Shown: one piece after another, positions 12,616-64,000 of the stretch
How the letters are laid out: every line of letters starts with the position of its first letter
How positions within the stretch are numbered: position 1 is the stretch's first letter
From: Candidatus Bathyarchaeota archaeon
Lineage (GTDB): Archaea; Thermoproteota; Bathyarchaeia; Bathyarchaeales; Bathycorpusculaceae
Reading direction: 5' to 3'
NCBI GenBank assembly: GCA_026014685.1
Contig: JAOZHW010000007.1
Span: forward strand, 186,001 to 250,000
Length of the DNA stretch: 64,000 nucleotides
Made by a program: the position numbers and the translations under genes
The notes under the pieces: generated by a model
What the model was told of the DNA's origin: nothing
Seen by the model: the letters and a program-made list of their open reading frames with translations, nothing else
Databases searched by the model: none

Positions 12616-12902
12616 CTACATTGACTTCTATTTTTAATTAACCATAGACGTAAGCTCTTGGCACGTAGAGAACCCAACCATTTTCGATTCTATATATAAT
12701 GGAGTGGAGAGAGACGGCAAAGCAGCATTGTTCAAAGTATGTTAAATTTGGTTTAAGCGCTTGTTTGCTCCAGTTTTCTCATTATCTGTGTTTCTTGAGC
12801 GGGTGTCATTCAACCTTTTTGTTTTTGCAACCAAAACTTAGCTTATTATGCAAAACTTTATAACCGCGCCGAGCGTTTTGAGTTCTAAAAAGGTAGAAGC
12901 AA
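12616..12902. promoter_or_regulatory. intergenic region with TATA box of the next gene
   Basis: TTTATAA at 12857-12863 is a good TATA box; transcription would start near 12885, leaving a short leader with AAGGT before the ATG at 12903. A second AT-run, TATATATAATGG near 12691, precedes a 50-codon frame that looks like chance. I see no RNA gene here. Confidence 0.6.
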
Positions 12903-15717: not shown

Positions 15718-15792
15718 CGTTTATCGCCACCGATAGTTAGCTTCAATCAATGTATAACGTTAGCGGTCAAATGCTCAGCGGTTAATAGACGC

Positions 15793-15884
15793 CCCTTATT
15801 TAAAGTCGCATACGAATCCGTATCCGCAAATAGCTGGAACCACGCGACCTCTCACAGCAGACCCCCCTCCCTTATTTAAAGAAC
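15793..15884 (+). repeat. dispersed promoter-associated element, copy A
   Basis: This copy begins and ends with the same 13-mer CCCTTATTTAAAG (15793-15805 and 15869-15881), 76 bases apart. Inside are a small hairpin, ATACG-AATC-CGTAT (15811-15824), then a GC-rich core with CTGGAACCACGCGACC. Bases 15817-15854 are identical to 55074-55111 read on the other strand (38 bases). The right-hand TATA faces the IMPase gene at 16003. The core is not coding in any frame I could follow. Confidence 0.85.
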
Positions 15885-34163: not shown

Positions 34164-34251
34164 TTCAGCCTTTAGTTTATAGAATGAGATGTTGCGTTGA
34201 GGTTGGGTTGCAGGTTTGTTAAATCAGAAAAAAGCTCGTAAGAACGCCTAC

Positions 34252-34291
34252 TGCTCTGCTGCCTCCTCCCCTCCCTTATTTAAAGAACAAA
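34252..34291 (+). repeat. dispersed promoter-associated element, copy B (promoter half only)
   Basis: CCTCCCCTCCCTTATTTAAAG (34265-34284) and the following GAACAAA are almost identical to the right end of elements A, C and D. The hairpin and GC-rich core are missing. It faces the MFS gene at 34371, so this is a plausible promoter with an extended pyrimidine tract before the TATA box. Confidence 0.75.
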
Positions 34292-49741: not shown

Positions 49742-49808
49742 TCACGCAGAAATGTTTAGGATAATATTTTATTGCCAAACCGCTGATGCTAAAGTCTGGG
49801 AAGCAACC

Positions 49809-51161
49809 GTGACAGCAAAGAAGGTTGAGGAGTTTCTATGCGAGCACAGCATGCTCATCTTGGTCTTAGTCGGTAGCTTCCTCATCACCGCACCCATGGG
49901 CACCTACAGCAACTGGGATGCACAACTCGAATACGAAGCCACCGCCAGCATTCTCACCACAGGATACCCCACTGTCACAACGGGACTTATGATTAATCAG
50001 CCTCCGCTGGGTTTCTACACCTCAGCTGCTACCTTCGCAATCTTCGGCGCGTCATACCTAAATGGCGTGGCTCTGGTGACTGTGTTTGGGCTCGGCTGCG
50101 TCGCGGCAGTCTACGCCTTAGGCACAGTACTATATGGCAAAAAAACAGGTTTAGCCGCCTCAGCGCTCTTCGGTTTTGTCCCCTGGCACGTTTACATGTC
50201 GAGAATTTTCTTAATCGACAACCAATACCTTTTCTTGAGCCTAACGTTCCTAACATTGGCAGTTTTGGCTGTTAAACGCAACAGTGAACGGCTGGTTTTG
50301 GCTGCTGGTGTGGTGTTTGCGTTGGCTTTTTTAACCAAGCTCTTCGCCGTGTTCACCCTAATCCCCCTACTGCTCTTCATAACTCTGAACAGAAAAGAGA
50401 GTACCTTCAAGTTGGATAGACACAAGGTGCTGTTGTTTGTTTTGCCCTCGCTTATTCTGCAGACGGTTTGGTTTGGAGGGTTTGCAAACCAGCATTTCTT
50501 CGGCGTCTACTTCGCCAGCGACTTCACCCACCCCGAACTCGTCGCCAACCCTGTACCAGAATTCTTACCGATAATTTATGTAAAGAGTGCAGGGTGGTTC
50601 CTGTTTGCTGCGGTTTTCTTTTCTGCGGCGCTTGCGGTTGCCTATCGGCGGCAGCTGAAAAGGTTTTTGCGTTTAGACCTTGTCTGCCTCGGAGCCGTCG
50701 CGGCGGTTATGGCGCTTGATATGCTGTTGGTTTTGGTTTTTCATTTGACAGTGCCCTATGTCAGCGCCGTGAAATACAACTATTTCGCGTTGCCCTTCCT
50801 GTGTTTGGCTGCAGCGTCGATAGCCGACAAAGGCCACGTCTTGATTGGTTCATTGGATACCAAGAAAAAAATCGACTGGATAAAACCTGCCTTGGTTTTA
50901 GCGGGGTTGCTTTTGGTTTTTGCTTCGTTGGTTGAAAGCACGCTGTTTGTGAATGCGTGGTATGGTTTTGTTTCGTTTGGCGTGGACTCGGTCACCTACT
51001 ACGGATTCTACCTAAACACCCCCGTAGAAGATCCAAATCTCATGGTTAACATGCATTTTGTGGGGTTAGCGTTAACTGTTGTGGGCTTAGTTGCCTCAGC
51101 GTTTTTTAGTTTGCTAAGCGGCACCTTGAGACGACGGGTTAATTCGAAGGTGGTACCTTAA
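49809..51161 (+). CDS. GT-C/ArnT-like polytopic glycosyltransferase
   Basis: The protein has about eleven membrane helices. GTYSNWDAQLEYEATA in the first loop gives the acidic pair, and LMINQPPLGFYTSA recalls the PPL motif of PMT/ArnT-like enzymes. SRIFLIDNQYLFLSL follows as in GT83/GT39. From GTG 49809 it has 450 residues; a longer frame to 49734 exists, but a TATA-like AATATTTTAT at about 49762 makes GTG more likely. It probably uses a lipid-linked sugar. Confidence 0.82.
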   Translation: MTAKKVEEFLCEHSMLILVLVGSFLITAPMGTYSNWDAQLEYEATASILTTGYPTVTTGLMINQPPLGFYTSAATFAIFGASYLNGVALVTVFGLGCVAAVYALGTVLYGKKTGLAASALFGFVPWHVYMSRIFLIDNQYLFLSLTFLTLAVLAVKRNSERLVLAAGVVFALAFLTKLFAVFTLIPLLLFITLNRKESTFKLDRHKVLLFVLPSLILQTVWFGGFANQHFFGVYFASDFTHPELVANPVPEFLPIIYVKSAGWFLFAAVFFSAALAVAYRRQLKRFLRLDLVCLGAVAAVMALDMLLVLVFHLTVPYVSAVKYNYFALPFLCLAAASIADKGHVLIGSLDTKKKIDWIKPALVLAGLLLVFASLVESTLFVNAWYGFVSFGVDSVTYYGFYLNTPVEDPNLMVNMHFVGLALTVVGLVASAFFSLLSGTLRRRVNSKVVP

Positions 51162-52350
51162 CCCGCCTTTTGCTCAAAACAAAAACCGCTATCGAGCTTG
51201 CCAGCAGCGTACTCAGAGAGGCAAACAAACCCAGATAATGCAGACTTGTTGCGAATATGATGCCGCTTAAAATGGGTCCTAAAGTTTGCCCTATATCCAT
51301 AACGGTTGCGAGAAAACCCATCGAAGCACCCACCAGCGACGCGGGCACCAACTCGCTCATCAACGGCGTAGTCGAAGATAGAACAGCGGCAAACGCTACA
51401 CCGTACCCAACCGCCAAGAGGAGCAGCAATGGGAACGCTGTTGTGAAAGGAATTACCGCAATCAGGAGGCAACTGGCGGCTGCGCCTGCGATGATGGGTT
51501 TAGAGCGCCCAATCCTATCCGAGACTCGCCCTATTAGGGGTCGCGCAATCACCAGCGCAGCGATTTGGCTGCCTGCAATGACGCCGACGGAAAAAATGTC
51601 TAGTCCCGCAACCTCCGTCAAGTAGCCGACTAAGAAAAACTCTACGGAGCCAAACACGTAGTACTGGATCGCTTGAACGTAGCTTACCCCTAAAACCCTG
51701 CGGTTCCTGATTAGATAAACCCAGCCGCCTAACATTTTTCTGGTTGACCGTTCCACAGGTCGCACCACCTGTGTTGATTCTCTTTTTTCAGCTAAAAACA
51801 GCACCGCAACCACCAACGCCGTCACCCCCGCCACGCCCACAGCCAAGTAGAGCGAGAAGTAGCTCTGGCTAGTTGCGAACAGGATGTAGCCGCCGAGAAA
51901 AGGAGCTAAAGCCCGACCCACCGCAGTGGCAGAACTGAAAAGCGAGATACGCTCACCGCGCTTGGTTGGGTAGAGTTCGGCGATTGAGGCTTCAGCTACT
52001 GGGATAAAGATGGCAGTGGCGAAACCGTGATAGAAACGGACAAGCGCCAACGTCCACCAAGAATCCACTCCCAAGTAGAAGAAAGGTGCGGAGGCAAAAA
52101 CGAAAGCGGATAGTAGCAGCATTTTGCGTCTGCCAAAGATGTCGGAGAGTGATGCTGCGGGCAAACTGACGAGGATGCCTGGTATGGTTGAGGCAGAGGC
52201 TACGATGCCCAGCAGTTCGTTGGGGGTGCCTAAGCTGGTTGCGAAGGGTTTAAGCACGGGGTTTTTTGACATAGTTGAGCTAAGGATAGCGAAAAAGCCC
52301 AGTATACACATGATAACGAAGATTTTCTGGGTGTTGCTAAGCCTAAGCAT
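51139..52350 (-). CDS. major facilitator superfamily transporter
   Basis: The 403-residue protein shows twelve helices. SDIFGRRKMLLLSAF is the conserved loop-2/3 motif, RFYHGFATAIFIPVAEASIAEL is helix 4-5, and a second SDRIGRSKPIIAG lies in the symmetric half. It is likely a proton-driven exporter of a small molecule. Its end overlaps the GT-C gene end on the other strand by 23 bases. Confidence 0.88.
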   Translation of the reverse strand: MLRLSNTQKIFVIMCILGFFAILSSTMSKNPVLKPFATSLGTPNELLGIVASASTIPGILVSLPAASLSDIFGRRKMLLLSAFVFASAPFFYLGVDSWWTLALVRFYHGFATAIFIPVAEASIAELYPTKRGERISLFSSATAVGRALAPFLGGYILFATSQSYFSLYLAVGVAGVTALVVAVLFLAEKRESTQVVRPVERSTRKMLGGWVYLIRNRRVLGVSYVQAIQYYVFGSVEFFLVGYLTEVAGLDIFSVGVIAGSQIAALVIARPLIGRVSDRIGRSKPIIAGAAASCLLIAVIPFTTAFPLLLLLAVGYGVAFAAVLSSTTPLMSELVPASLVGASMGFLATVMDIGQTLGPILSGIIFATSLHYLGLFASLSTLLASSIAVFVLSKRRVKVPPSN

Positions 52351-52471
52351 GTGCGGTAACCTTACAAGGAAGCTGCAGTTGGCGTATTTTTTGTTTACTC
52401 TAACCTCCTAAGAACGATGTTGTTTATTAAGAAAGAACGTGTTCAATTAGAAGCTAATTGAAGGCACCACA

Positions 52472-53161
52472 TTGAGTATACTACCGAAAATAACCCGCAA
52501 CGAGAACTTCAAATCCATACTCGCTATCGCCATAATCGTAATCATAGTTTTAGGTTTCTTCTTTGGGCTACGGTTCGCCCTAAACACAGATGTCCCAGTT
52601 CGCGTTGTTGAAAGCGGCAGCATGTGTGTACCCTACGACGGCTTATGCGACGGCTGGAGCCACACCTTCGCCCAAACATTACACGTCGGCGACATCATAA
52701 TCATCCAAGGCGTAGACCCAAAAACCCTAAACGCAGATTACCCCAACAGCGACGTCATAGTCTACCTAAACCCCAACAACCCCTCAGCCACCCCAATTGT
52801 GCACAGAATAGTTTCAAAGTACGAAATCAACGGCACCCTTTACTTCCAAACTAAAGGCGACGGCAACGGCGACCCCTGGCCCAAAGAGGTTTCACCAAAC
52901 CAGTATGACTCCCGCACGCTCTGGAACAGCGGTCAAGGTGTACCCGAAAACCTCGTTATCGGCAAAGTTGTTATGCGTATCCCATGGTTTGGGCACATAA
53001 CGCTCTTTCTGAGAAACAACCCTGTGGGGTTACCGATTGTTATTGGGTTAATCATCTTGCTGTTGCTGGTTGAGTTCATCATACCTTTAATCAGGAAAAA
53101 AACGCAGCAACCACCACAACCTGCTATGCCAGAGACAGAAAAAGGAAATTTTGAAGTGTAA
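52472..53161 (+). CDS. archaeal signal peptidase I (Sec11-like)
   Basis: The 229-residue membrane protein has an N-terminal helix (about 15-34). The ESGSM motif gives nucleophile Ser50, IVHRIV gives His111 in place of bacterial Lys (the ER/archaeal Ser-His type), and KGDGNGDPWP gives Asp130/Asp134. A second membrane helix follows (about 182-205), then a basic Pro/Gln tail. It would cleave signal peptides of the many secreted proteins here. TTG start. Confidence 0.9.
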   Translation: MSILPKITRNENFKSILAIAIIVIIVLGFFFGLRFALNTDVPVRVVESGSMCVPYDGLCDGWSHTFAQTLHVGDIIIIQGVDPKTLNADYPNSDVIVYLNPNNPSATPIVHRIVSKYEINGTLYFQTKGDGNGDPWPKEVSPNQYDSRTLWNSGQGVPENLVIGKVVMRIPWFGHITLFLRNNPVGLPIVIGLIILLLLVEFIIPLIRKKTQQPPQPAMPETEKGNFEV

Positions 53162-53163
53162 AT

Positions 53164-53727
53164 TTATTTAAGCAGATTTGTCACGAATTGTCGGCATTTA
53201 GCGTCTACATCGTCACTGTTGGCAATTTTTGTAGCGGCTGTTAAAACCAAGTGGCTGTCGCTTGGAAGGTTCGCCACATCCGCCATCACAGCAGTTTGAT
53301 CCGCGTCGTCGATTTGTGCGCTGCCATAGCCGAACACGCCTACTTCTACGCCTGCGGGTTGAGTTAGACGGTTTAGATAAGTTTGGATGGCGCTTGCGGG
53401 TTTGCCTGCATAGATTGGGCCGCCCACCACCACAAGGTCATAGCTTGCGATGTCTGCAGCGGCGGAGCTTTTGACGCCTGCTAACGTAACGTCGTAGCCA
53501 GCTGCTTGTAGGTTGTAGCCGATTTTTGTAGCCACATCCTTAGCGCCACCGGTTAAACCAGGAGAATACACAATCAAGGCTTTGCCTGTTGCGTTTCCGT
53601 GTGGTAACGGATGCGTGTCAGTTGCCAAGTTACCTGCAACATCAAAGATCACTAAGGCGAAACCTGCAAAAACCGCAACAAAGAACACAGCGAAAACTAT
53701 CAGAATTATTTTCAGTATTTTGTTCAT
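53164..53727 (-). CDS. membrane-anchored flavodoxin-like protein
   Basis: The 187-residue protein has an N-terminal helix (about 5-27, LIVFAVFFVAVFAGFALVIF) and a flavodoxin fold: KALIVYSPGLTGGAKDVATKIG, YDLVVVGGPIYAGKPASAIQTY and VFGYGSAQ. The FMN phosphate loop is not a perfect T-G-N-T match. It is probably outside or membrane bound. A similar fold without an anchor is encoded next door. Confidence 0.78.
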   Translation of the reverse strand: MNKILKIILIVFAVFFVAVFAGFALVIFDVAGNLATDTHPLPHGNATGKALIVYSPGLTGGAKDVATKIGYNLQAAGYDVTLAGVKSSAAADIASYDLVVVGGPIYAGKPASAIQTYLNRLTQPAGVEVGVFGYGSAQIDDADQTAVMADVANLPSDSHLVLTAATKIANSDDVDAKCRQFVTNLLK

Positions 53728-53816
53728 GCTCGTCTCTTTTCCTCTCTGTCGAGGTAATTTGGATGATGAGATAAAAAGTTAGCCCGAGAAGAGAAGCAGT
53801 TTTTCATGCAGCCTTG

Positions 53817-54386
53817 TCAGGTTTGACTTGCTTTTTGAGCTAAATCTTTTGCCCAACTTCGAATTTCTTCCATATCACGCAGGTCGTAGACTCCAGGTGA
53901 GGTTTCTTTGAAACCGTCTTTTTCTAGCTGCTGACGAATTGAACCCAACGTTTTGCGGAACAAAAAATTCATCTTATTGTAATCAATCACTCCGCCAAAG
54001 AAACCCAAAGAGATGGGCTGCAGACTGTACTTGGTGACTTTGTCGGTTAAGGCGAACTTTCGGGTTACTTCTACGTCTTGGGTTTTGCCCTGTCGCTCCG
54101 AAACCGTCTTCATCGTCGAAGCAAACAATGCCAGTTTTTTGTTGGCGAAGTCGTTTTGGAAGCGTTTAAGAAAATCCTCTGCTTCACTGGTCCATTTTCC
54201 TATCTGTAACCCGCTGCCCACAACTATGAGCTCGTATGGGTTGAGGTCTTTGATTTTTTCTTCTTTAGCATTTACAACTTTAACGTCAAAGCCTTCGCCT
54301 CTGAGGACTGAGGCGATTTCTTCAGCTGTGCCTGCGGATGCGCCGTAGCGGGTGCCATAAACTATGAGTGCCTTCACGTTTTCCAC
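53817..54386 (-). CDS. flavodoxin-family protein (HemG/protoporphyrinogen-oxidase-like)
   Basis: The 189-residue protein starts KALIVYGTRYGASAGTAEEIASVL, the FMN loop of the HemG-type group, then LIVVGSGLQIGKWTSEAEDFL, and LALFASTMK. It likely binds FMN and moves electrons. The tail resembles that of HemG. It follows the other flavodoxin gene on the same strand with 89 bases between. Confidence 0.82.
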   Translation of the reverse strand: MENVKALIVYGTRYGASAGTAEEIASVLRGEGFDVKVVNAKEEKIKDLNPYELIVVGSGLQIGKWTSEAEDFLKRFQNDFANKKLALFASTMKTVSERQGKTQDVEVTRKFALTDKVTKYSLQPISLGFFGGVIDYNKMNFLFRKTLGSIRQQLEKDGFKETSPGVYDLRDMEEIRSWAKDLAQKASQT

Positions 54387-54499
54387 CAGTACCTACTCGG
54401 TTGAGTCGTTTAATAAAACTATGTCAACATATTTTCAGCGCTTTATAGAGGGTAGACGTCTATGCAGATCAAAACCTATTCTTCTTGCCATGCTTCTTG

Positions 54500-55012
54500 T
54501 CAGTTCATGGTGTCGGAGCCGAGCACTCTGCCAGAAACTTTGCCGATTACGCCGGGGCGAAGCGCCTGCACCATCCATGCGTCTGCGACTTCTGCGGGGA
54601 GGGGGTATGTGGGTTCGAAGCCCAATTTTGAGGCCGGCGTGAAACCGAACTTTGGGTAGTATGCTATGTGTCCGAGCACAAAAACGAGGTCTGTGCCTGT
54701 TTGATTTTGGAGTTCTAGGCCTTTATTGATGAGGGTGCCGCCTATGCCTTGCTTTTGGAACTCGGGGATGACGGCGAGGGGCGCGAGGAATGAGGCTTTG
54801 ATGTTGGGGGCGCCGACGACTGTTGCTTTGGAGAAGAGGATATGCCCAACTGGCTGTCCATCAACGTAAGCGAGTAGCGACAGCAACGGCTTGGCGGATG
54901 GGTCAACTAAGAGGTCACGGGTCAAGTTAACCTCTGCGTCCCTGTTGAAAGCCGCCCGCTCAACCAACAGTATGTCATTTAAGTCTGCGTCGGAGGTTTC
55001 ACGTATTAGCAT
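54500..55012 (-). CDS. GNAT-family N-acetyltransferase
   Basis: The GNAT fold is clear: LIRETSDADLNDI, HILFSKATV, LAPLAVIPEFQKQGIGGTLINKGLE (the acetyl-CoA loop Q-x-x-G-x-G/A) and VLGHIAYYPKFGFTPA. ATG 55012 is chosen: the frame is open to 55036, but promoter element C ends at 55042 and would start transcription near 55026, after that codon. From 55012 the protein has 170 residues and starts MLIRETSDAD, as relatives do. The substrate is unknown. Confidence 0.85.
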   Translation of the reverse strand: MLIRETSDADLNDILLVERAAFNRDAEVNLTRDLLVDPSAKPLLSLLAYVDGQPVGHILFSKATVVGAPNIKASFLAPLAVIPEFQKQGIGGTLINKGLELQNQTGTDLVFVLGHIAYYPKFGFTPASKLGFEPTYPLPAEVADAWMVQALRPGVIGKVSGRVLGSDTMN

Positions 55013-55041
55013 AAGCTTCACTTGGGCAATACTCATTCGCT

Positions 55042-55140
55042 TGTTCTTTATATAAGGGAGGGGAGGTACACGCTGAGAGGTCGCGTGGTTCCAGCTATTT
55101 GCGGATACGGAAACGTATGCGTCTCTAAAATAGAAGGGGG
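55042..55140 (-). repeat. dispersed promoter-associated element, copy C
   Basis: Read on the minus strand it has the hairpin ATACG-TTTC-CGTAT, the core CTGGAACCACGCGACC, and the TATA end CTCCCTTATATAAAG-AACAAG. Bases 55074-55111 match 15817-15854 exactly (38 bases). The hairpin loop differs from copy A while the stem is kept. The TATA sits right before the GNAT gene. Confidence 0.85.
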
Positions 55141-55825: not shown

Positions 55826-56617
55826 TCACCAGTTGAGTTTCTTGCGCAGTTCTGCTGCTTTGTCCAGAGCAATCTTTGAGGCTTCTAAAATCTGTTGCGG
55901 TGTAAAAGAGCTCGACCCGCCCTTCTGAATGGCGCAGATGTTGCCGTCTTCGTTGGTTGCGAAGGTGATACGTGAGTCCATAACGGATTCTTCTTCAAGC
56001 CAGGGGTCAACTAGCAGTTTGTTGTTGATTTTGCCGATAGTGACAGTTATTGGGTGGCTTTTCATCGGTAGTGGTGTGTAGCCTTGTTTGATTTTGACTT
56101 CGCCGTCTTTAACTTCATAGTTAGGCATCTTTGTGTTTAGCAAAGCCGCGATGGCTGCGATGGCTGAAGCATCGATGAGGTTTCCGTCGTGGTTCAAAAC
56201 GTAGACGTCTACGAAAACCACAAAGACGTTTTTGCCTGGTTCAATGCAGAGTTTAGCGGTGTCGATTGCGTGTGATTCTCTTATGCCTCTGTCGACGACG
56301 CGTGCGAGCTCGATGCTGTTTTCGTCAGGTGGACCAGGCTCAAAGTTTGGTGAAGCAAGAGGAACGAGTTCTGCGTTGACGGTCATTACACCTTCGTTTG
56401 GTGTGTCTGGGAAAGGTTCACCTGTTTCGATTTTTACGCCGACGAGAACCTCGGTTTTTCCGAGTAAAACGCGGGCTGAGCCTTCAGCTTTCTCGATCAT
56501 TCCTTGTTCGATTTTGATTTCGCGGGTATCCAGTAAGCCTCTGTCGTCGAGGCGTTTGCCTTTTTCGAGGAGTGTTTCAATTTGCTTTAGACGTACTTTA
56601 GTTATAGGTGATGACAT
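55826..56617 (-). CDS. rrp42: exosome complex subunit Rrp42
   Basis: The 263-residue RNase PH-like protein is the inactive subunit of the archaeal exosome core; with Rrp41 it forms the hexameric ring that degrades RNA. DTREIKIEQG, VDVYVLNHDGNLIDASAIAAIAALLNTKMP and VTIGKINNKLLVDPWLEEE are typical. The start overlaps the rrp41 stop by one base, implying coupled production of the two ring subunits. Confidence 0.93.
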   Translation of the reverse strand: MSSPITKVRLKQIETLLEKGKRLDDRGLLDTREIKIEQGMIEKAEGSARVLLGKTEVLVGVKIETGEPFPDTPNEGVMTVNAELVPLASPNFEPGPPDENSIELARVVDRGIRESHAIDTAKLCIEPGKNVFVVFVDVYVLNHDGNLIDASAIAAIAALLNTKMPNYEVKDGEVKIKQGYTPLPMKSHPITVTIGKINNKLLVDPWLEEESVMDSRITFATNEDGNICAIQKGGSSSFTPQQILEASKIALDKAAELRKKLNW

Positions 56618-57351
56618 TACTCTTCGACCTCCTTAACAACCATGTACTTAGTTTTGAGTGCTTCTTTCTGCAGGGCGTAGATTTTCTTGCAGCCATCCAT
56701 TGCCATGTTGACTGCTTTCTCGAATTCATCAGGGCTCAGGATACCGTCCATCTGCAGCAAGGTAACAGCGTTTAAGCTGGGCATGTAGGCAACAGGCACG
56801 TCTGCACAACCGAGTTTATCCTCAGCGTCATAGAGGTCCAAGACGACTGTATCGTCAACTTTGCCTGCGGCGCATGCCGCAACTAAGTCACGCATGGGAA
56901 CTCCTGCGTCAGCGATTGCCAACGCTGCGGCGGTTATGCTTGCGCATCTGGTTCCGCCGTCTGCTTGCAGGACTTCTACGAAAACATCTACACCTGTGCG
57001 GGGGTAAAGTTCCAAGAAAAGTGCTGGTTCAAGGGATTCTTTTATGACTTTGCTGAGTTCTACTTCGCGGCGTGAGGGTGCAGGGGATTTGCGTTCCTGT
57101 ACACTGAAAGGTGCCATGTGGTAGCGGCATCTTAGAACCATTCTGTCTGGTTGTGCTAGGTGTTTGGGGTGCATTTCTCTTGGGCCGAATGCTGCGGCTA
57201 AAATTTTGTTTTTGCCGTGTTCAATGTAGGCTGAGCCGTCTGCGTTTGAGAGTACGCCGACTTGAAGTTTTAGGGGGCGAAGTTCATCCGCTTTTCGTCC
57301 GTCTCCACGGATGCCCTTTTTGTCGATTAGTTTATCGGGTTTTTCATTCAA
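56617..57351 (-). CDS. rrp41: exosome complex catalytic subunit Rrp41
   Basis: The 244-residue RNase PH domain carries [55 protein letters not shown] and a [20 protein letters not shown] strand with the catalytic Asp pair. It is the phosphorolytic subunit. Order rrp4-rrp41-rrp42 with overlaps of 8 and 1 bases matches most archaea. Confidence 0.94.
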
Positions 57352-58060
57352 CTTTATTTTCCTCCAATTTAGCTGGTTGTTTCTTTTCTTTCAATAACTG
57401 CGTGATGCGGTCAGTTAAGCCGCTGGTGTGGGATTCTTCTTCAATTTTACGTATGGCTCCGATGGCAACTTCCTCATCTTCAGGGGTTTTGCCAGTGACC
57501 AAGACCACACCGTTTAAGCCGAGTATGATTTGGCAGTTGGTTTCCTGTTTAATCATAGAAATCATGGAGCCTTTGCGTCCGATGATGCGTGGAATCTTTG
57601 TCGGGGTCACTCTGAGAATTTGACCGCGTGTAATCTTGCCCAAGCCGGGTTCGCCCACGGTTAATTGGGGGTCGTGTGCGCGGTCGTAGGATGCGATTTT
57701 GGCAACGATTAGGTCGCCTGCGTTTAGGACTGCACTTAATTCATCGTTTTGGGGTTTGAAGGGTCTGCTCAAGACATCTGAGGCTCGGAGCATGGCTGTG
57801 TAGGGTGCTTTGATGTCCACTGTCCAGCCGTTGAAGCCTACTTCAATGACTGTGCCGATAACTATGTCACCTGTTTTTGGGACATAGAATGCTCTGAGTG
57901 CAACGACGTTGACTTTTTTGTTGTCGCTGTCTACGAGTCCAATCCTTGAGGCATAAATCTTGCCGTTTTCTACAAACGTGTTTTCGCCGGGTAAGTAGTC
58001 GCCTTCAGCGAGTAATTCTCCGGGCGTTACGAGCTGTTTTTTTTCAAAGAATGCTGGCAT
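57344..58060 (-). CDS. rrp4: exosome RNA-binding cap subunit Rrp4
   Basis: The 238-residue protein has an N-terminal domain ([19 protein letters not shown]), an S1 domain ([20 protein letters not shown], about 65-140) and a KH domain with [18 protein letters not shown] (about 160-180). It caps the exosome and guides RNA in. It lies between sbds and rrp41. Confidence 0.94.
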
Positions 58061-58090
58061 AAAATCACCATTTTTTGTTTTTCATGTTAC

Positions 58091-58777
58091 TTAGATTATT
58101 TTTGCTTCTCCACTTCCTTTAGTTACGTCGCCCAACTTATTTAGCAGTGAAGCGTATGATCCTGCGGGCAACTCGAGTTCACCGTACCATGAGCCGTCAC
58201 CGCGCCATTCTTCCCGTTTTATGGTGCCGAGTGCTTTGACGGTGCCGTATGCTCTGGCGGCGTACTGTGTGGGAATTTTTACTGCAACCTTGATTTGCTC
58301 CACTTTGAGTGGCAGTATGGGTCGCAGAAGTTTAACTATGTCTTTGGCTTGTTCCTCGACAGGTTTGTACGGGTCGATGGGGTAGCGGATTTGCTCCATG
58401 GCGTTTTCGATGCGCATGGGTGGATGCGGCAAGTTGGTTTTTGGGTCAACTGCCTGACGAGAAATGAAGTCGATTACTTGTCTTTTTTTGTCTTCGACCA
58501 TTTTTCTTCTTTGGTCGGTTGTAAGCTGGAGGGTTCCTTTCTTTATGATTTCATCTGCGATTTTGAGTGGATCCACCGTTTTGAAGGCTTTTTTCATGGC
58601 TTCTTCGGAGACTTTGGTGCCTTTGTTTGCGTCAGAAAAAATGATTTCTGCAGCTAAAACCTCGGTTATTCCTGAGATTTTGCCGCTTCGGTAGTCTAGT
58701 GCTTTGTTGGGTTTTACTAGGATTTCGAAGTGTTCGTTTTCTCGGGTTAAGCGTGCGACGGTGAACTTTTCACTCAT
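58091..58777 (-). CDS. sbds: ribosome maturation protein SBDS
   Basis: The 228-residue protein has the SBDS N-terminal FYSH domain (FEILVKPNKALDYRSGK, then EAMKKAFKT), the middle domain with LTTDQRRKMVEDKKRQVIDFISRQAVDP and IRYPIDPYKP, and a C-terminal ferredoxin-like domain. It helps release the anti-association factor (aIF6) from the large ribosomal subunit. It lies 8 bases after psmA. Confidence 0.93.
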   Translation of the reverse strand: MSEKFTVARLTRENEHFEILVKPNKALDYRSGKISGITEVLAAEIIFSDANKGTKVSEEAMKKAFKTVDPLKIADEIIKKGTLQLTTDQRRKMVEDKKRQVIDFISRQAVDPKTNLPHPPMRIENAMEQIRYPIDPYKPVEEQAKDIVKLLRPILPLKVEQIKVAVKIPTQYAARAYGTVKALGTIKREEWRGDGSWYGELELPAGSYASLLNKLGDVTKGSGEAKII

Positions 58778-58784
58778 TACTTTG

Positions 58785-59513
58785 TCACTTGCTTGAACCC
58801 AGCTCTTTAATGTAACCTTCGACTTTGTCGTCGCTTAGCATTTCCATCTTTTTGGTTGAGGCTGGGATGATCGCTATTTTGATTCTTGGCGGTAGCTGCC
58901 GTGCTTCCAGTGCCTTTATGAGGCATTTCACTGCCAGTTTGATGGTGCTGTCTAGTTTTAGGTCTTCTTTGTATTCCTCTTTTAGGATGTTTAGGACTGT
59001 TTCTCGTCCTGCACCCAACGCAGTGGCTTTGTATCCGCGGTATGTTCCACTTGGATGTGTGCCGAATACTCGTGCGCCTGTTTTGTCGACACCGCCGAAG
59101 ATTATGGATACACCGAACGGTCGGACACCTGCATGTTGGGTGTACATTTGTTGGATATCGCAGATGCGTTTGGTGACGACTTCTACATCGATGGGTTCAT
59201 CGTATGTTAGTTTGTTACTTTGAGCATAGATGCGTGCTTGATCGATTAGGATTCTTGCGTCGCTGCTTAATCCAACGATGGCTGCGCCTATGTGGTCGTC
59301 TACGCGGAAGATTTTGTATGAGAAGCCTGCTTCTTCGAGGGCTTCTATGTTTTCCTCGGACCCCAAGACTAAGCCGTCTGAGGTTTGGATGCCAAGTATG
59401 GTGGCTCCGCGGTTGACGAGTTCCATCGCGTATTCGACTTGGAAGAGTCGACCATCAGGCGAGAAAACTGTGATTGCACGGTCATATGCTCCTGGTGCTG
59501 CAAATACGGACAT
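58785..59513 (-). CDS. psmA: 20S proteasome subunit alpha
   Basis: The 242-residue alpha subunit has the N-terminal gate segment AYDRAITVFSPDGRLFQVEYAMELVNRGATILGIQ and the ring helix with GVRPFGVSIIFGG. No catalytic Thr is expected in alpha subunits. It leads the operon, with GAGGTT before the ATG and a TATA-like TTTTATAG near 59584-59591. No beta subunit is in the window. Confidence 0.94.
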   Translation of the reverse strand: MSVFAAPGAYDRAITVFSPDGRLFQVEYAMELVNRGATILGIQTSDGLVLGSEENIEALEEAGFSYKIFRVDDHIGAAIVGLSSDARILIDQARIYAQSNKLTYDEPIDVEVVTKRICDIQQMYTQHAGVRPFGVSIIFGGVDKTGARVFGTHPSGTYRGYKATALGAGRETVLNILKEEYKEDLKLDSTIKLAVKCLIKALEARQLPPRIKIAIIPASTKKMEMLSDDKVEGYIKELGSSK

Positions 59514-59619
59514 AATATGTTAACCTCATTTATCCTGTTGACTTTTTCACAGACTCATACAATAACTATACTAAAAACCTTCCTATAAAAGGAAAACCTA
59601 AAACTTGTCCAACACAGGG

Positions 59620-59640
59620 GCTAAAAAGGCGCTTTTTAGC
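59620..59640. promoter_or_regulatory. palindromic hairpin upstream of the psmA operon
   Basis: GCTAAAAAG and CTTTTTAGC are perfect 9-base complements around GCG. It lies about 30-55 bases upstream of the psmA TATA box, where archaeal activators bind. It could also be a terminator on the plus strand, but no T-run follows. Confidence 0.55.
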
Positions 59641-59686
59641 AGCAAAACAGACCACAAGAGGCGTTATCAGTTACAATTTTCTCTTT

Positions 59687-59781
59687 CCCTCTTATTTAGG
59701 GACGCATACGAACGTACCTACAACTTCTGGAGCCACGCGACGTCTCAAAGCTGACCTCCCCTCCCTTATATAAAGAACAAA
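59687..59781 (+). repeat. dispersed promoter-associated element, copy D
   Basis: It has CTTATTTAGGGACGCATACG at the left, TACG-AA-CGTA as the hairpin, CCACGCGAC and TCTCA in the core, and CTCCCTTATATAAAGAACAA at the right. It is more divergent than A and C in the middle. It points at the 3' end of the beta-propeller gene on the other strand, so no coding gene lies downstream in its orientation. Confidence 0.8.
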
Positions 59782-59821
59782 CTGGTTAAGCAAATGGAGA
59801 GGTTACTACATCAAAAAGTGG

Positions 59822-61192
59822 CTATGTACAGGCTGTGAGCCAGAGGTCACCAGCAATAAACACTTGGTCGCCGTCTTTTACTGGCGGCAGAACAAAATGG
59901 TCGAACCGATGGAGCTCCGTCAAGTTGCCTGTTGAAGCGTCCAATATCCAAAGCGAAGTGTGTTCCGTTAAATAAACTGTACCCTTGTTGACGACCATGC
60001 CTGCTGAGGGACTATAAAAGCTACCCTTGTTCTCTATCACTTGTATCCACGTCAGGTTGCCGTTGGGTAAGTCAAGGCTACAGACGACTCCTGTGTACGT
60101 GTAGTTTTTGTTTGAACTGCTGGTTACCAGTTTTTGGGTTACACCGAAGCTCCAGTATAAACGGTTGTTTTTAGTGTCAATTTGAATGGGGTATGTTGTC
60201 AGGGTTATTTTGTCATCGTCCACATTAGTCAACAGGTTTTTGCTGTCAATATTACTTATCCACACCTGTTTGCCTTCAGAGACGTTTACTGCATAGAGGT
60301 TGCCGTTACCAGCGCCAAAAAATAACAGGTTCCCATTTGATGTTGCCTGATAGATTGAAGCGCCGACATCGAAAGTCCAAAGGATTTTACCTGAGGTTTC
60401 ATCTAAAGAAATGAGTTGTGTAATGTTAGCTATTATGACTTGACGTTGGGTGATAGCTATAATAATTGGAAGAGTTTCAAGTGTTGATTCTGTGTTTGTT
60501 TGCCAAAGGATATTGCCGTTTTTTGTGTCCAGCTTGAAAAAGTATACGTCTGATGCGTTGCCGCCAATACAGTATACCCAACTACCATCAAATGTGTTGC
60601 CGACCAATGGAAACCCACTAACCCGCCAATTTTTGAGGTCAGTAATGTTGCCAACGGTTCTCCCGTAATAGCGTACAGCCTCCCATATCAAATCCCCCGT
60701 CGATGCATTAATAGCAATAACATAACCCCCGAAACCTGCTGAAACAGCAAAAACCCTTCCATTATTCACTATAACCGTGTCAGCTACATGAAATCGGACC
60801 GCTGTCCCATATTGGATCCATTTGAATTGTCCTGTAGCTTCATCCAAACAGCCAACCGCGCCATGTCTTTTGGCTCCACAAACAATTCCCTCAGAAACCA
60901 CCAATTCGCTTTGAATCAGTGCACCTAAGCCCAAACCTGAACCGTTCCAGATGGATCGCCCAGTTTTGGCGTCATAACAGTTTACGTTGTATTGTGCGTC
61001 TGTGGTAAACACTTTGCCATTAGCGCTTGTCAGTGCAGTTGCGAAGTGCCCGATTGGGCGTTGCCATGAACCTATTGGTTCTTCTGGACTGAGAAGGCTG
61101 TTTTGGTAGATTACTAAAGAAGAAACTGCTATGGCCGTAACCAAAAATGTGGCAAGGATTACTTTGATTTGCCGATTCATCTTCCTTCTCAA
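59822..61192 (-). CDS. PQQ-like beta-propeller protein with N-terminal anchor
   Basis: The 456-residue protein has a membrane helix (about 9-29, VILATFLVTAIAVSSLVIY) and propeller repeats: YDAKTGRSIWNGS, DEATGQFKWIQY, NASTGDLIWEAV, DTKNGNILWQT, DETSGKILWTF, NVSEGKQVWISN. It lies outside the cell. It lacks the C-terminal anchor of the 828-residue protein at 40 kb but has the same repeat type. Function unknown; PQQ binding is not shown. Confidence 0.83.
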   Translation of the reverse strand: MRRKMNRQIKVILATFLVTAIAVSSLVIYQNSLLSPEEPIGSWQRPIGHFATALTSANGKVFTTDAQYNVNCYDAKTGRSIWNGSGLGLGALIQSELVVSEGIVCGAKRHGAVGCLDEATGQFKWIQYGTAVRFHVADTVIVNNGRVFAVSAGFGGYVIAINASTGDLIWEAVRYYGRTVGNITDLKNWRVSGFPLVGNTFDGSWVYCIGGNASDVYFFKLDTKNGNILWQTNTESTLETLPIIIAITQRQVIIANITQLISLDETSGKILWTFDVGASIYQATSNGNLLFFGAGNGNLYAVNVSEGKQVWISNIDSKNLLTNVDDDKITLTTYPIQIDTKNNRLYWSFGVTQKLVTSSSNKNYTYTGVVCSLDLPNGNLTWIQVIENKGSFYSPSAGMVVNKGTVYLTEHTSLWILDASTGNLTELHRFDHFVLPPVKDGDQVFIAGDLWLTACT

Positions 61193-61359
61193 TCTGCTCG
61201 TGGGTTATCCGATCTTATATCGTTTTGCAGTTTTCCGTTGTTATTCAAGGGGACCATTTTTGCTATTAAATCTAAGTTGATAACAAAAAGCAATTAGAGA
61301 AATCTTTACATCTCCCCCACCTCAAATTAACTATCAAACCCGCCTCGAGAAGCCCGCAT

Positions 61360-62787
61360 ATGAGCATCCTATCTCATGACACATTCTGGAACGGCATCGT
61401 CTCCATGCCCATGACCAAGCGGATGCTCCAGCTCTCGCTTAAAAAGTGCCCAGCCTGCGGCAGAACGGTTCTTGAAGCGGCGCTGGATGATTACGGCGGC
61501 AAAACCGACAAAAAATGCCGCAAATGCAGTGGGCTCTACTCGCAGATTATCGCGTTCTGGATAGAATTCCTACGCAGGGCATTGGGATTCAAACGGGCTA
61601 AAGTCGAGAAGCTCCTAACGGACAGATACGCGCGCAACGCTGTCCTCAACTTGGTTGAATCTTTTGAGCACTTCGGCATAAAGAAGCCAATTTCGCTTGT
61701 AGCTCCTTTTTTGGTGGTTTGGGATTTCACCCACAAATGCAATTTGCGTTGCAAGCACTGCTACAGCAACAGCGGCGAACCCGAGCCTGACGAGTTAACA
61801 ACCGAGCAGGCACTCAACGTTGTTGACCAGTTGGCTGATGCGCATGTTACGGCGTTGGCGTTTAGCGGCGGCGAACCCCTCACACGCAAAGACTTCTTCC
61901 AAGTTGCAAAACACGCCTCAGACCGAGGTCTCTACATTTCTTTAGCGTCAAACGGCACCCTACTAAATAGGGAGAACGCTGCTAAACTGAAACAGGCGGG
62001 AGTTAACTACGTTGATATTAGCATCGATGGGGCAACTGCGAAAACCCATGACGACTTCCGCGGGGTAAACGGCGCCTACGACCGTGCTGTTGCGGGTCTC
62101 AAGAACTGCATCGAAGCCGACATCTGCACGTGCATCGCCACCACCGTTGGCAAAAACAACATGGCGGAGCTCCCTGCTATAATCGATTTAGCTGAAGAAT
62201 TGGGAGTGGAACGGTTTACTTACTTCAATTTTATCCCTGCTGGACGCGGCAAAGACCACGCCGACCAAGACCTAACAGCACAAGAACGCGAAGACGTAAT
62301 GCGCTACCTTCTGAATCGTATGTCGGCAGGCTGCAAAACCACCATACTCGCAACGGCGCCGCAGTTGGCTCGGGTTGCAGCTCAATGTCAAGGTGACGCA
62401 GGTACAGGGGAAGTCACGATGGCTTTGGCGCATATGCAAACCGTCAAAGTCACAAAGAAAGCGGTGCCCTTGGGTGAGTTCATAGGCGGCTGTGGAGCAG
62501 GAAGACTCTACTGCGCCATTTCTCCGCAGGGTGACGTGCGCCCCTGTGTGTTCCTTCCAGTTAACGTGGGTAACCTTAAAGAACGCACATTCAAAGACAT
62601 CTGGCTAAACGCGCCGCTCTTTAACGCCTTCCGCAACCGAGCTAACCTCAAAGGCAGCTGCAGCAAATGCACCTACAAGTACATCTGCGGCGGATGCCGA
62701 GCACGCAGCGCAGCTTACCATAACGGAGACACCTTAAACGGTGACCCAGGCTGTCTTAACGGAGTGAAAATCCAAAATGGCAGCTAA
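61360..62787 (+). CDS. radical SAM/SPASM protein with N-terminal zinc ribbon
   Basis: The 475-residue protein starts with CPACG (30-34) and CRKC (53-56), a zinc ribbon. The radical SAM site is HKCNLRCKHCYS (Cys127, Cys131, Cys134), then AFSGGEPLTRKDFF. The C-terminal SPASM-like part has CSKCTYKYICGGCRARS. It resembles heme-biosynthesis AhbD-like and peptide-modifying enzymes, but the substrate is unknown. It overlaps the DUF362 gene by 11 bases. Confidence 0.87.
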   Translation: MSILSHDTFWNGIVSMPMTKRMLQLSLKKCPACGRTVLEAALDDYGGKTDKKCRKCSGLYSQIIAFWIEFLRRALGFKRAKVEKLLTDRYARNAVLNLVESFEHFGIKKPISLVAPFLVVWDFTHKCNLRCKHCYSNSGEPEPDELTTEQALNVVDQLADAHVTALAFSGGEPLTRKDFFQVAKHASDRGLYISLASNGTLLNRENAAKLKQAGVNYVDISIDGATAKTHDDFRGVNGAYDRAVAGLKNCIEADICTCIATTVGKNNMAELPAIIDLAEELGVERFTYFNFIPAGRGKDHADQDLTAQEREDVMRYLLNRMSAGCKTTILATAPQLARVAAQCQGDAGTGEVTMALAHMQTVKVTKKAVPLGEFIGGCGAGRLYCAISPQGDVRPCVFLPVNVGNLKERTFKDIWLNAPLFNAFRNRANLKGSCSKCTYKYICGGCRARSAAYHNGDTLNGDPGCLNGVKIQNGS

Positions 62788-63730
62788 CACGGTGAAAATC
62801 AGCCGTGCAGGCAACGACGTAAGCGGCATCATTAAAGAAGCCGTCTCAAAAGCTAACCTCAAAGGCAAAAAACGGATTTACATCAAACCCAACCTCAGCC
62901 ACCCCGAATACCTGCCCGGCGTCGTCACCAGCCCCGAAGTCATGCGTCAAGTCGTCAGCCTCTTACGCGACGCCAACAGCGAAGTTATAGTCGGTGAATC
63001 CAACGGTTTCAACTATCCCTGCTGGACCGCCTTTGACAAAACGGGGGTGCAGGCAGCGGTTGAGGCGGCAGGCGGAAAAGTCATCAACCTCTCTGAGGAC
63101 AAAGTAGTTGAAGTAAAATTCCAGACCAACACACCTCTCAAAAGGCTCTACCTTCCCAAAACCATCATAGACGCAGACGCCGTCGTCGATTTGCCGCTAA
63201 TGAAGACGCATGAGTTTATGGCGTACAGTGGAGCCGTCAAGAACCTCTTTGGATGCGTGCCAAGCAACCGCCGCATCTATCTGCATCCGTATCTGCCTGA
63301 AGTGTTCTATCGGCTCTATTCTCTTTTCAAGCCGTCGCTTACAATCATGGACGCCCGCATCGGAATCGAGGGCAACGGCCCAACCAAAGGCAAACCCGTC
63401 AAAATGGGCTTATTCCTAACGGGCAACGACGCCTTGGCAGTGGACATCGTCGCCGCAGAAGTTATGATGTTGGATTGGAAGAAAACCTACCTCAAATATG
63501 TCGCCGACAAATCGGGCTTCAACGGAGACGCCATCCAAGTTGAAGGGTTGCAGGTAAGGGAGGTTGCGCACCGCTTTGAGCCGCCCCGAATTGACCTGCC
63601 TGTGAAGGCGCAGATGATGATTTATCAGCATGAGTATTTGACCAAGTTTTTCTTCTGCTCACTCGACATTGTGCACTTGTTCCAGAGGGTTACACAAGCT
63701 TACCGAAAAGAACCCGTACAAATTGCCTAA
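62777..63730 (+). CDS. DUF362 family protein
   Basis: The 317-residue protein shows the DUF362 pattern: IYIKPNLSHPEY with a PNL loop, VIVGESNG, DADAVVDLPLMKTHEFMAYSGAVKNLFGCVP, and DARIGIEGNGPTKGKP. No ferredoxin motif is present, unlike longer DUF362 proteins. Co-occurrence and overlap with the SPASM enzyme suggest a joint pathway. The real reaction is unknown. Confidence 0.86.
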   Translation: MAANTVKISRAGNDVSGIIKEAVSKANLKGKKRIYIKPNLSHPEYLPGVVTSPEVMRQVVSLLRDANSEVIVGESNGFNYPCWTAFDKTGVQAAVEAAGGKVINLSEDKVVEVKFQTNTPLKRLYLPKTIIDADAVVDLPLMKTHEFMAYSGAVKNLFGCVPSNRRIYLHPYLPEVFYRLYSLFKPSLTIMDARIGIEGNGPTKGKPVKMGLFLTGNDALAVDIVAAEVMMLDWKKTYLKYVADKSGFNGDAIQVEGLQVREVAHRFEPPRIDLPVKAQMMIYQHEYLTKFFFCSLDIVHLFQRVTQAYRKEPVQIA

Positions 63731-64000
63731 CTAAGCGCTTCTTGGTAGACTTTCATGGCGTCTTTGACCACAATGCGCCAATCCAGCTGCTCAACCACCG
63801 TCTGCCGCGCTTTTACCCCCATCTCAGAGGCCTCCGCTGGGTGCTCAAGCAAGTGGAGGATTCTGTCCGCGAATGCTTTTTCATCGAAGGGCTTAACAAG
63901 GAAGCCGTTTTTGCCGCTTTGGATTGTTTCGGGGATGCCGCCCACCGTTGTCGTCACTACAGGTAAACCTGTTGCCAACGCCTCCAACACTGCAAAGGGG
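63727..64000 (-). CDS. glycosyltransferase family 4, C-terminal part only
   Basis: The last 91 codons of a GT4/GT1-like glycosyltransferase, continuing past the right edge. PFAVLEALATGLPVVTTTVGGIPE is the nucleotide-sugar-binding E-x7-E region. The stop codon overlaps the DUF362 stop on the opposite strand. The substrate is unknown. Confidence 0.85.
   Translation of the reverse strand, partial: PFAVLEALATGLPVVTTTVGGIPETIQSGKNGFLVKPFDEKAFADRILHLLEHPAEASEMGVKARQTVVEQLDWRIVVKDAMKVYQEALS

Follow-up and report, generated by a model that had tools for sequence, protein, structure and literature searches.

Copies of the element in the window

The window, by which we refer to the whole 64-kb stretch of DNA analysed here, carries four copies of a short dispersed element (A to D; Table 1), all of which had been predicted from the sequence at the same positions. 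The genes adjoining copies A, B and C were identified by Pfam as those of an IMPase-family, an MFS and a GNAT protein, respectively, as originally proposed. Copy D fronts no gene: a proteasome alpha gene starts on one side of it and, on the other, a convergent gene (59822-61180, minus strand) has its 3' end. The 13-base direct repeat CCCTTATTTAAAG of copy A (15793-15805 and 15869-15881, 76 bases apart) was present as described, as were the 38-base identity between A and C, the ATACG..CGTAT stem of these two copies and the corresponding TACG-AA-CGTA of D. The window contains the right-end motif CTCCCTTATWTAAAG exactly four times, and seven matches were obtained when up to two mismatches were allowed, against 0.21 expected from shuffled sequences. 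Copy B, which had been considered to be a promoter-only copy, is instead a member of a second subfamily, in which CTACTGCTCTG replaces CACGCGACGTCTC. A possible decayed copy of this subfamily obtained a score of 9.5, the best scores of mononucleotide shuffles being 8.3-12.6.

Table 1. Element copies and their parts in the 64-kb window
Feature	Position	Strand	Support or remark
Copy A, full subfamily 1	15791..15881	+	Profile match E=3e-20
Copy A, left TATA-like repeat	15793-15805		
Copy A, stem	15810-15814 with 15819-15823		
Copy A, box	15841-15854		
Copy A, right end	to 15881		
Copy B, subfamily 2	34244..34291	+	Box CTACTGCTCTG; profile E=1e-5; PWM score 51.7 against subfamily 2
Copy B, right end	34271-34285		
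Copy C, full subfamily 1, inverted	55046..55133	-	Profile E=7e-24; subfamily PWM
Copy C, right end	55046-55060		
Copy C, stem	55105-55109 with 55114-55118		
Copy D, full subfamily 1	59687..59775	+	Profile E=2e-20; subfamily PWM
Copy D, stem	59707-59710 with 59713-59716		
Copy D, box	59734-59747		
Copy D, right end	59761-59775		
Possible decayed subfamily-2 copy	12682..12729	-	GCTGCTTTGCCG...CTCCATTATATATAG; not significant by itself

Architecture and subfamilies

The element contains two invariant blocks, CACGCGACGTCTC and ACCTCCCCTCCCTTATWTAAAG, separated by a variable spacer of 6 nt. Some 20 positions were essentially invariant in a set of 80 subfamily-1 copies, in which the spacer between the blocks varied; these copies were selected by match score, so the invariance is somewhat overstated. 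Two subfamilies can be told apart by the box, which is CACGCGACGTCTC in copies A, C and D, and of the GCTGCTCTG type in copy B and others. Homology among copies stops abruptly at the right end, and the left modules are interchangeable: a hairpin module, a AACATTGAAAAC-type module or, in some copies, a longer stretch, reaching about -260, that contains hairpins and a T-tract (GCGATTTTTTCTATAG). A full left part including the hairpin module was found in about 45 of the profile matches, and many others start near GAAYCACGCG. Some intergenic regions contain two or more units in tandem. The existence of separable modules was thus confirmed by full, half, long and tandem forms, all with the same right end.

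Copy number and distribution among relatives

A nucleotide search with copy A as the query gave 40 scored matches in the genome under study (G000, 2.3 Mb). A profile based purely on the sequence of 37 copies gave 124 matches at E≤5 and about 119 at E≤0.01. The four copies of the original prediction are all real, but the genome as a whole contains about 120, and the additional copies that it anticipated, in the genome and in relatives, were readily found. In a survey of the genus with the same profile (E≤0.01), 11 of 32 genomes had a match, with 119 in G000, 87 in G018 (a related species of the same genus), 35 in G009, 29 in G012, 7 in G015 and at most three elsewhere. The end motif, with no more than one mismatch, was present in 6 of 32 congeners, and the reversed-pattern control gave zero matches in all of them. 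The element was absent from all 22 other genera sampled by nucleotide search. The 21-base right end was found, in the GTDB collection, in Bathyarchaeota MAGs only, mostly FK_Sedi_B_Bin.165; it was absent from IMG/VR, and a viral origin was rejected on this basis. The G009 and G012 copies examined retained the right end, with a box and left part unlike those of G000, and the versions of the element therefore look homogenised within a species. Literature searches yielded no described or comparable family for Bathyarchaeia.

Gene context

Genes were called with a simple codon-usage caller written for this analysis. None of the 87 loci with enough flanking sequence lay inside a predicted gene, 83% of the window being coding; in the first-pass gene calls, two short-flank loci (L036 and L041) overlapped low-scoring ORFs. 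Both neighbouring genes were available at 82 loci; the one on the right had the same direction as the element in 40 cases and the opposite direction in 42. Copies were under-represented in divergent intergenic regions (17 of these 82 loci, versus 13 of the 29 intergenic regions of the window), and many half copies start 3-30 nt downstream of a stop codon.

Synteny breakpoints

We retrieved 40 G018 stretches bearing the element, and reciprocal-best proteins between these and the G000 stretches retrieved had a median identity of about 90%. At several orthologous places, a copy was present in both genomes; these copies agreed in the invariant blocks and differed in loop, spacer and left module, and collinearity was often limited to a single flank. 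Half of the element sites were not positionally common to the two genomes.

As 20-kb queries taken from the window were swamped by element matches in G018, we used flank probes of 200 bp (-500 to -300 and +200 to +400), mapped to G000. Twelve loci were drawn at random from 23 not previously used. Both flanks could be mapped for ten, eight of which (L186, L187, L189, L190, L191, L205, L214 and L215) lay at synteny breakpoints with G000, the other two (L204 and L206) being collinear. Among 12 random non-element intergenic regions from the same G018 stretches, which were not length-matched to the element-bearing ones, nine had both flanks mapped and all nine were collinear. Breakpoints were therefore associated with the element (8/10 versus 0/9; Fisher p=0.0007) in this comparison of one species pair, based on draft assemblies and small samples of probes. 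An earlier set of 12 loci, biased in that it was chosen for not matching an element locus of G000, included nine with both flanks mapped, none of which was collinear, with L223 displaced by only about 4 kb. Locus L191 of the random sample corresponds to an 11.6-kb inversion between inverted G000 copies at C5:263337 (+) and C5:274931 (-).

A copy was detected in G000 by the profile on at least one side of seven of the eight random-sample junctions, and the eighth (L186) had a subfamily-2 copy. We also fetched 20 G000 junction regions in which a profile match was weak or lacking; a clear subfamily-2 copy lay at the junction in four of them, and the other 16 contained no element even in a relaxed search. 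A simple reciprocal exchange between two copies cannot, therefore, explain all of the junctions, and copy gain or loss is also required.

The reverse test, from G000, was mostly uninformative: loci with both flanks mapped were non-collinear in two cases (L138 and L185) and collinear in one (L166), and none of the eight window controls mapped in G018. A version of the test based on gene pairs within the stretches retrieved gave three collinear and three broken pairs with the element, versus 29 and four without it (p=0.06), a small sample that is suggestive only. The main block of the window collinear with G018 extends from 49755 to 55066 and ends inside copy C.

For most of positions 1-49000 and 56000-64000 of the window, little was found in G018. 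One G000 contig (C20, L031:1-5340), which codes for a NucS endonuclease and a Cdc6/Orc1-like protein, has 153-bp inverted repeats as its ends, which are 99% complementary. Either an invertible segment or an assembly break at inverted copies may account for this contig.

Nature of the element

The element combines a high copy number, two conserved blocks at a fixed spacing and swappable left modules with an intergenic location without orientation preference, a restriction to a few species and an association with synteny breakpoints. On sequence evidence, we consider it probable, if only just, that it is a lineage-specific, non-coding and modular intergenic mosaic repeat of the BOX/BIME type, present in a few species of one Bathyarchaeia genus, with which the chromosome is reshuffled. 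Copies would be retained between genes, often just past stop codons, and the presence of about 100 similar copies in either orientation would allow the chromosome to be rearranged, through exchange from one copy to another or through breaks that are made and rejoined at copies. The copies themselves would be the substrate of recombination, and the family may spread as a selfish or near-neutral element. Homologous recombination, site-specific exchange and preferential insertion at breaks would each give the observed pattern; a length of about 80 bp at 80-90% identity is short for ordinary homologous recombination. A repeat with about 120 copies, located at most of the junctions sampled, would explain much of the gene-order change in the clade, and would provide concrete sites for culture-free measurements of archaeal genome plasticity in metagenomes.

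The BIME/REP sequences of enterobacteria are intergenic mosaics of several repeat units, often located after genes and present in high copy number. These features are shared with the element described here, the core of which is nevertheless asymmetric, with no palindromic unit; a REP/RAYT system was rejected, as the genome has no Y1 (RAYT) transposase. The BOX elements of Streptococcus pneumoniae are composite boxA-boxB-boxC repeats with 125 copies, predicted to fold as RNA (PMC3049150). They resemble our element in having separable modules, a similar copy number (about 120 for a genome of about 2 Mb) and an intergenic location with enrichment away from promoters, and differ from it in phylum and in their predicted RNA fold, no such fold being predicted for the core studied here. 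The association with breakpoints distinguishes the Bathyarchaeia element from BOX. In terms of organisation rather than sequence, the element is closest to pneumococcal BOX, on account of its number of copies, its mosaic construction and its gene context, and resembles BIMEs more loosely. On these grounds, it would best be regarded as a new intergenic mosaic repeat of archaea, the breakpoint association probably being the part worth following.

The element might alternatively be the site of a dedicated site-specific recombinase, similar to those of invertons or attC, with proteins binding the box and the TATA-like end and exchange shuffling blocks of genes. Two invariant blocks at a fixed spacing, with a variable spacer between them, would be expected of such a site, and the majority of sampled copies lie at breakpoints; in addition, each of the 153-bp inverted terminal repeats of contig C20 includes a copy. 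Integron attC and invertible-segment sites likewise have conserved boxes around a variable spacer, are frequent just past stop codons and occur at the junctions of gene blocks, but no linked recombinase (in a search covering Y1 only), cassette arrays or gene-orientation rule was observed here. No defined exchange point was seen within the element, and many G000 junctions have no copy. We regard this interpretation as unlikely. The broader proposal that Bathyarchaeia possess an active, hitherto undescribed recombination system, for which the repeats serve as sites and which cuts and rejoins the chromosome between genes such that about 100 sites largely set gene order, is similarly doubtful.

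Another possibility, also of low probability, is that the copies bind a chromosomal protein, as a nucleoid organiser, an insulator or a two-way transcription-end signal, and are kept for this function, with rearrangements tolerated only at these sites, so that copies and breakpoints would coincide. Invariant columns stand beside fast-changing ones, including at orthologous sites, and copies are often found 3-30 nt past stop codons and rarely in divergent regions, all of which is consistent with a functional site. Most congeners nevertheless lack the element, half of the sites differ in position between the two species, and the core contains no poly-T or hairpin terminator.

The original prediction also considered a mobile element. 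The large number of copies, their restriction to a clade, their modular build and their location at breakpoints agree with a dispersed element, but no sign of classical transposition was found. It is improbable that the element is a MITE moved by some transposase, with breakpoints following from transposition or from homology between copies. MITEs, including those of archaea (PMC10969869), are also short, non-coding, multi-copy, lineage-specific and intergenic, and the existence of subfamilies, the intergenic bias and the expansion to a high copy number in one lineage fit this description. However, the alignment of copies revealed no terminal inverted repeats, the ends carrying the 13-base direct repeat instead, and the left end is variable. 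A comparison of L187/L203 with L265 at one site revealed no clear target-site duplication, clean empty sites being few, and no parent transposon was found. The only transposase family searched for, Y1 (PF01797), was absent from G000; the same search detected it in 5 of 14 control genomes. Thus, a classical MITE is not supported by the sequences compared.

A non-coding RNA gene is very improbable. RNAalifold gave an energy of -2.4 kcal/mol with almost no covariation, and an Rfam scan of the window identified nothing other than two tRNAs. Single folds of both strands had unremarkable z-scores (-0.1 to -2.1); one reverse-strand fold reached -2.1 and the other five lay between -0.1 and -1.6. The presence of hairpin-rich extra modules beside some copies is compatible with an RNA, but the folding, covariation and Rfam results led us to reject this reading for the element itself. 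The stem had been thought to be maintained by selection on structure. The same pairs were found at the stem columns in 31-33 of 37 rows, the remaining rows being mostly copies lacking the hairpin module, and selection therefore appears to act on the sequence of the stem rather than on pairing. Uncompensated change, which the original prediction would have counted against itself, was seen only insofar as the stem hardly changes.

A regulon promoter, in which the TATA-like end would drive the downstream gene and the box would bind an activator, has next to no probability despite the presence of that end and the genes in front of which A, B and C stand: it was rejected on the random orientation of the right-hand gene (40:42), and, with copies under-represented between divergent genes and D fronting none, the element probably does not drive its neighbours.

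A second repeated module and shared flanks

Some element copies have, on their left or right, a second repeated module that is about 130 nt long, contains hairpins (GTTGTTGTTGC...CAACAACAAC and CTGGTTGTGGC...CCGCAAGCAG) and is preceded by a T-tract. This module was found at L150:2086-2220(+), L136:1780-1914(+), L090:1302-1436(+), L220:4161-4295(-) and about 14 more loci. Its first hairpin has two alternative arm pairs, GTTGTTG/CAACAAC and GGAAGATG/CATCTTCTTCC, a hint of covariation. Loci L008 and L029 on the one hand, and L026, L032 and L127 on the other, share between 30 and 500 bp of sequence to the right of the element, and these duplications therefore carried the flank along. The left flanks of loci L149 and L150 are homologous over about 500 bp, which appears to reflect a duplication including the element.
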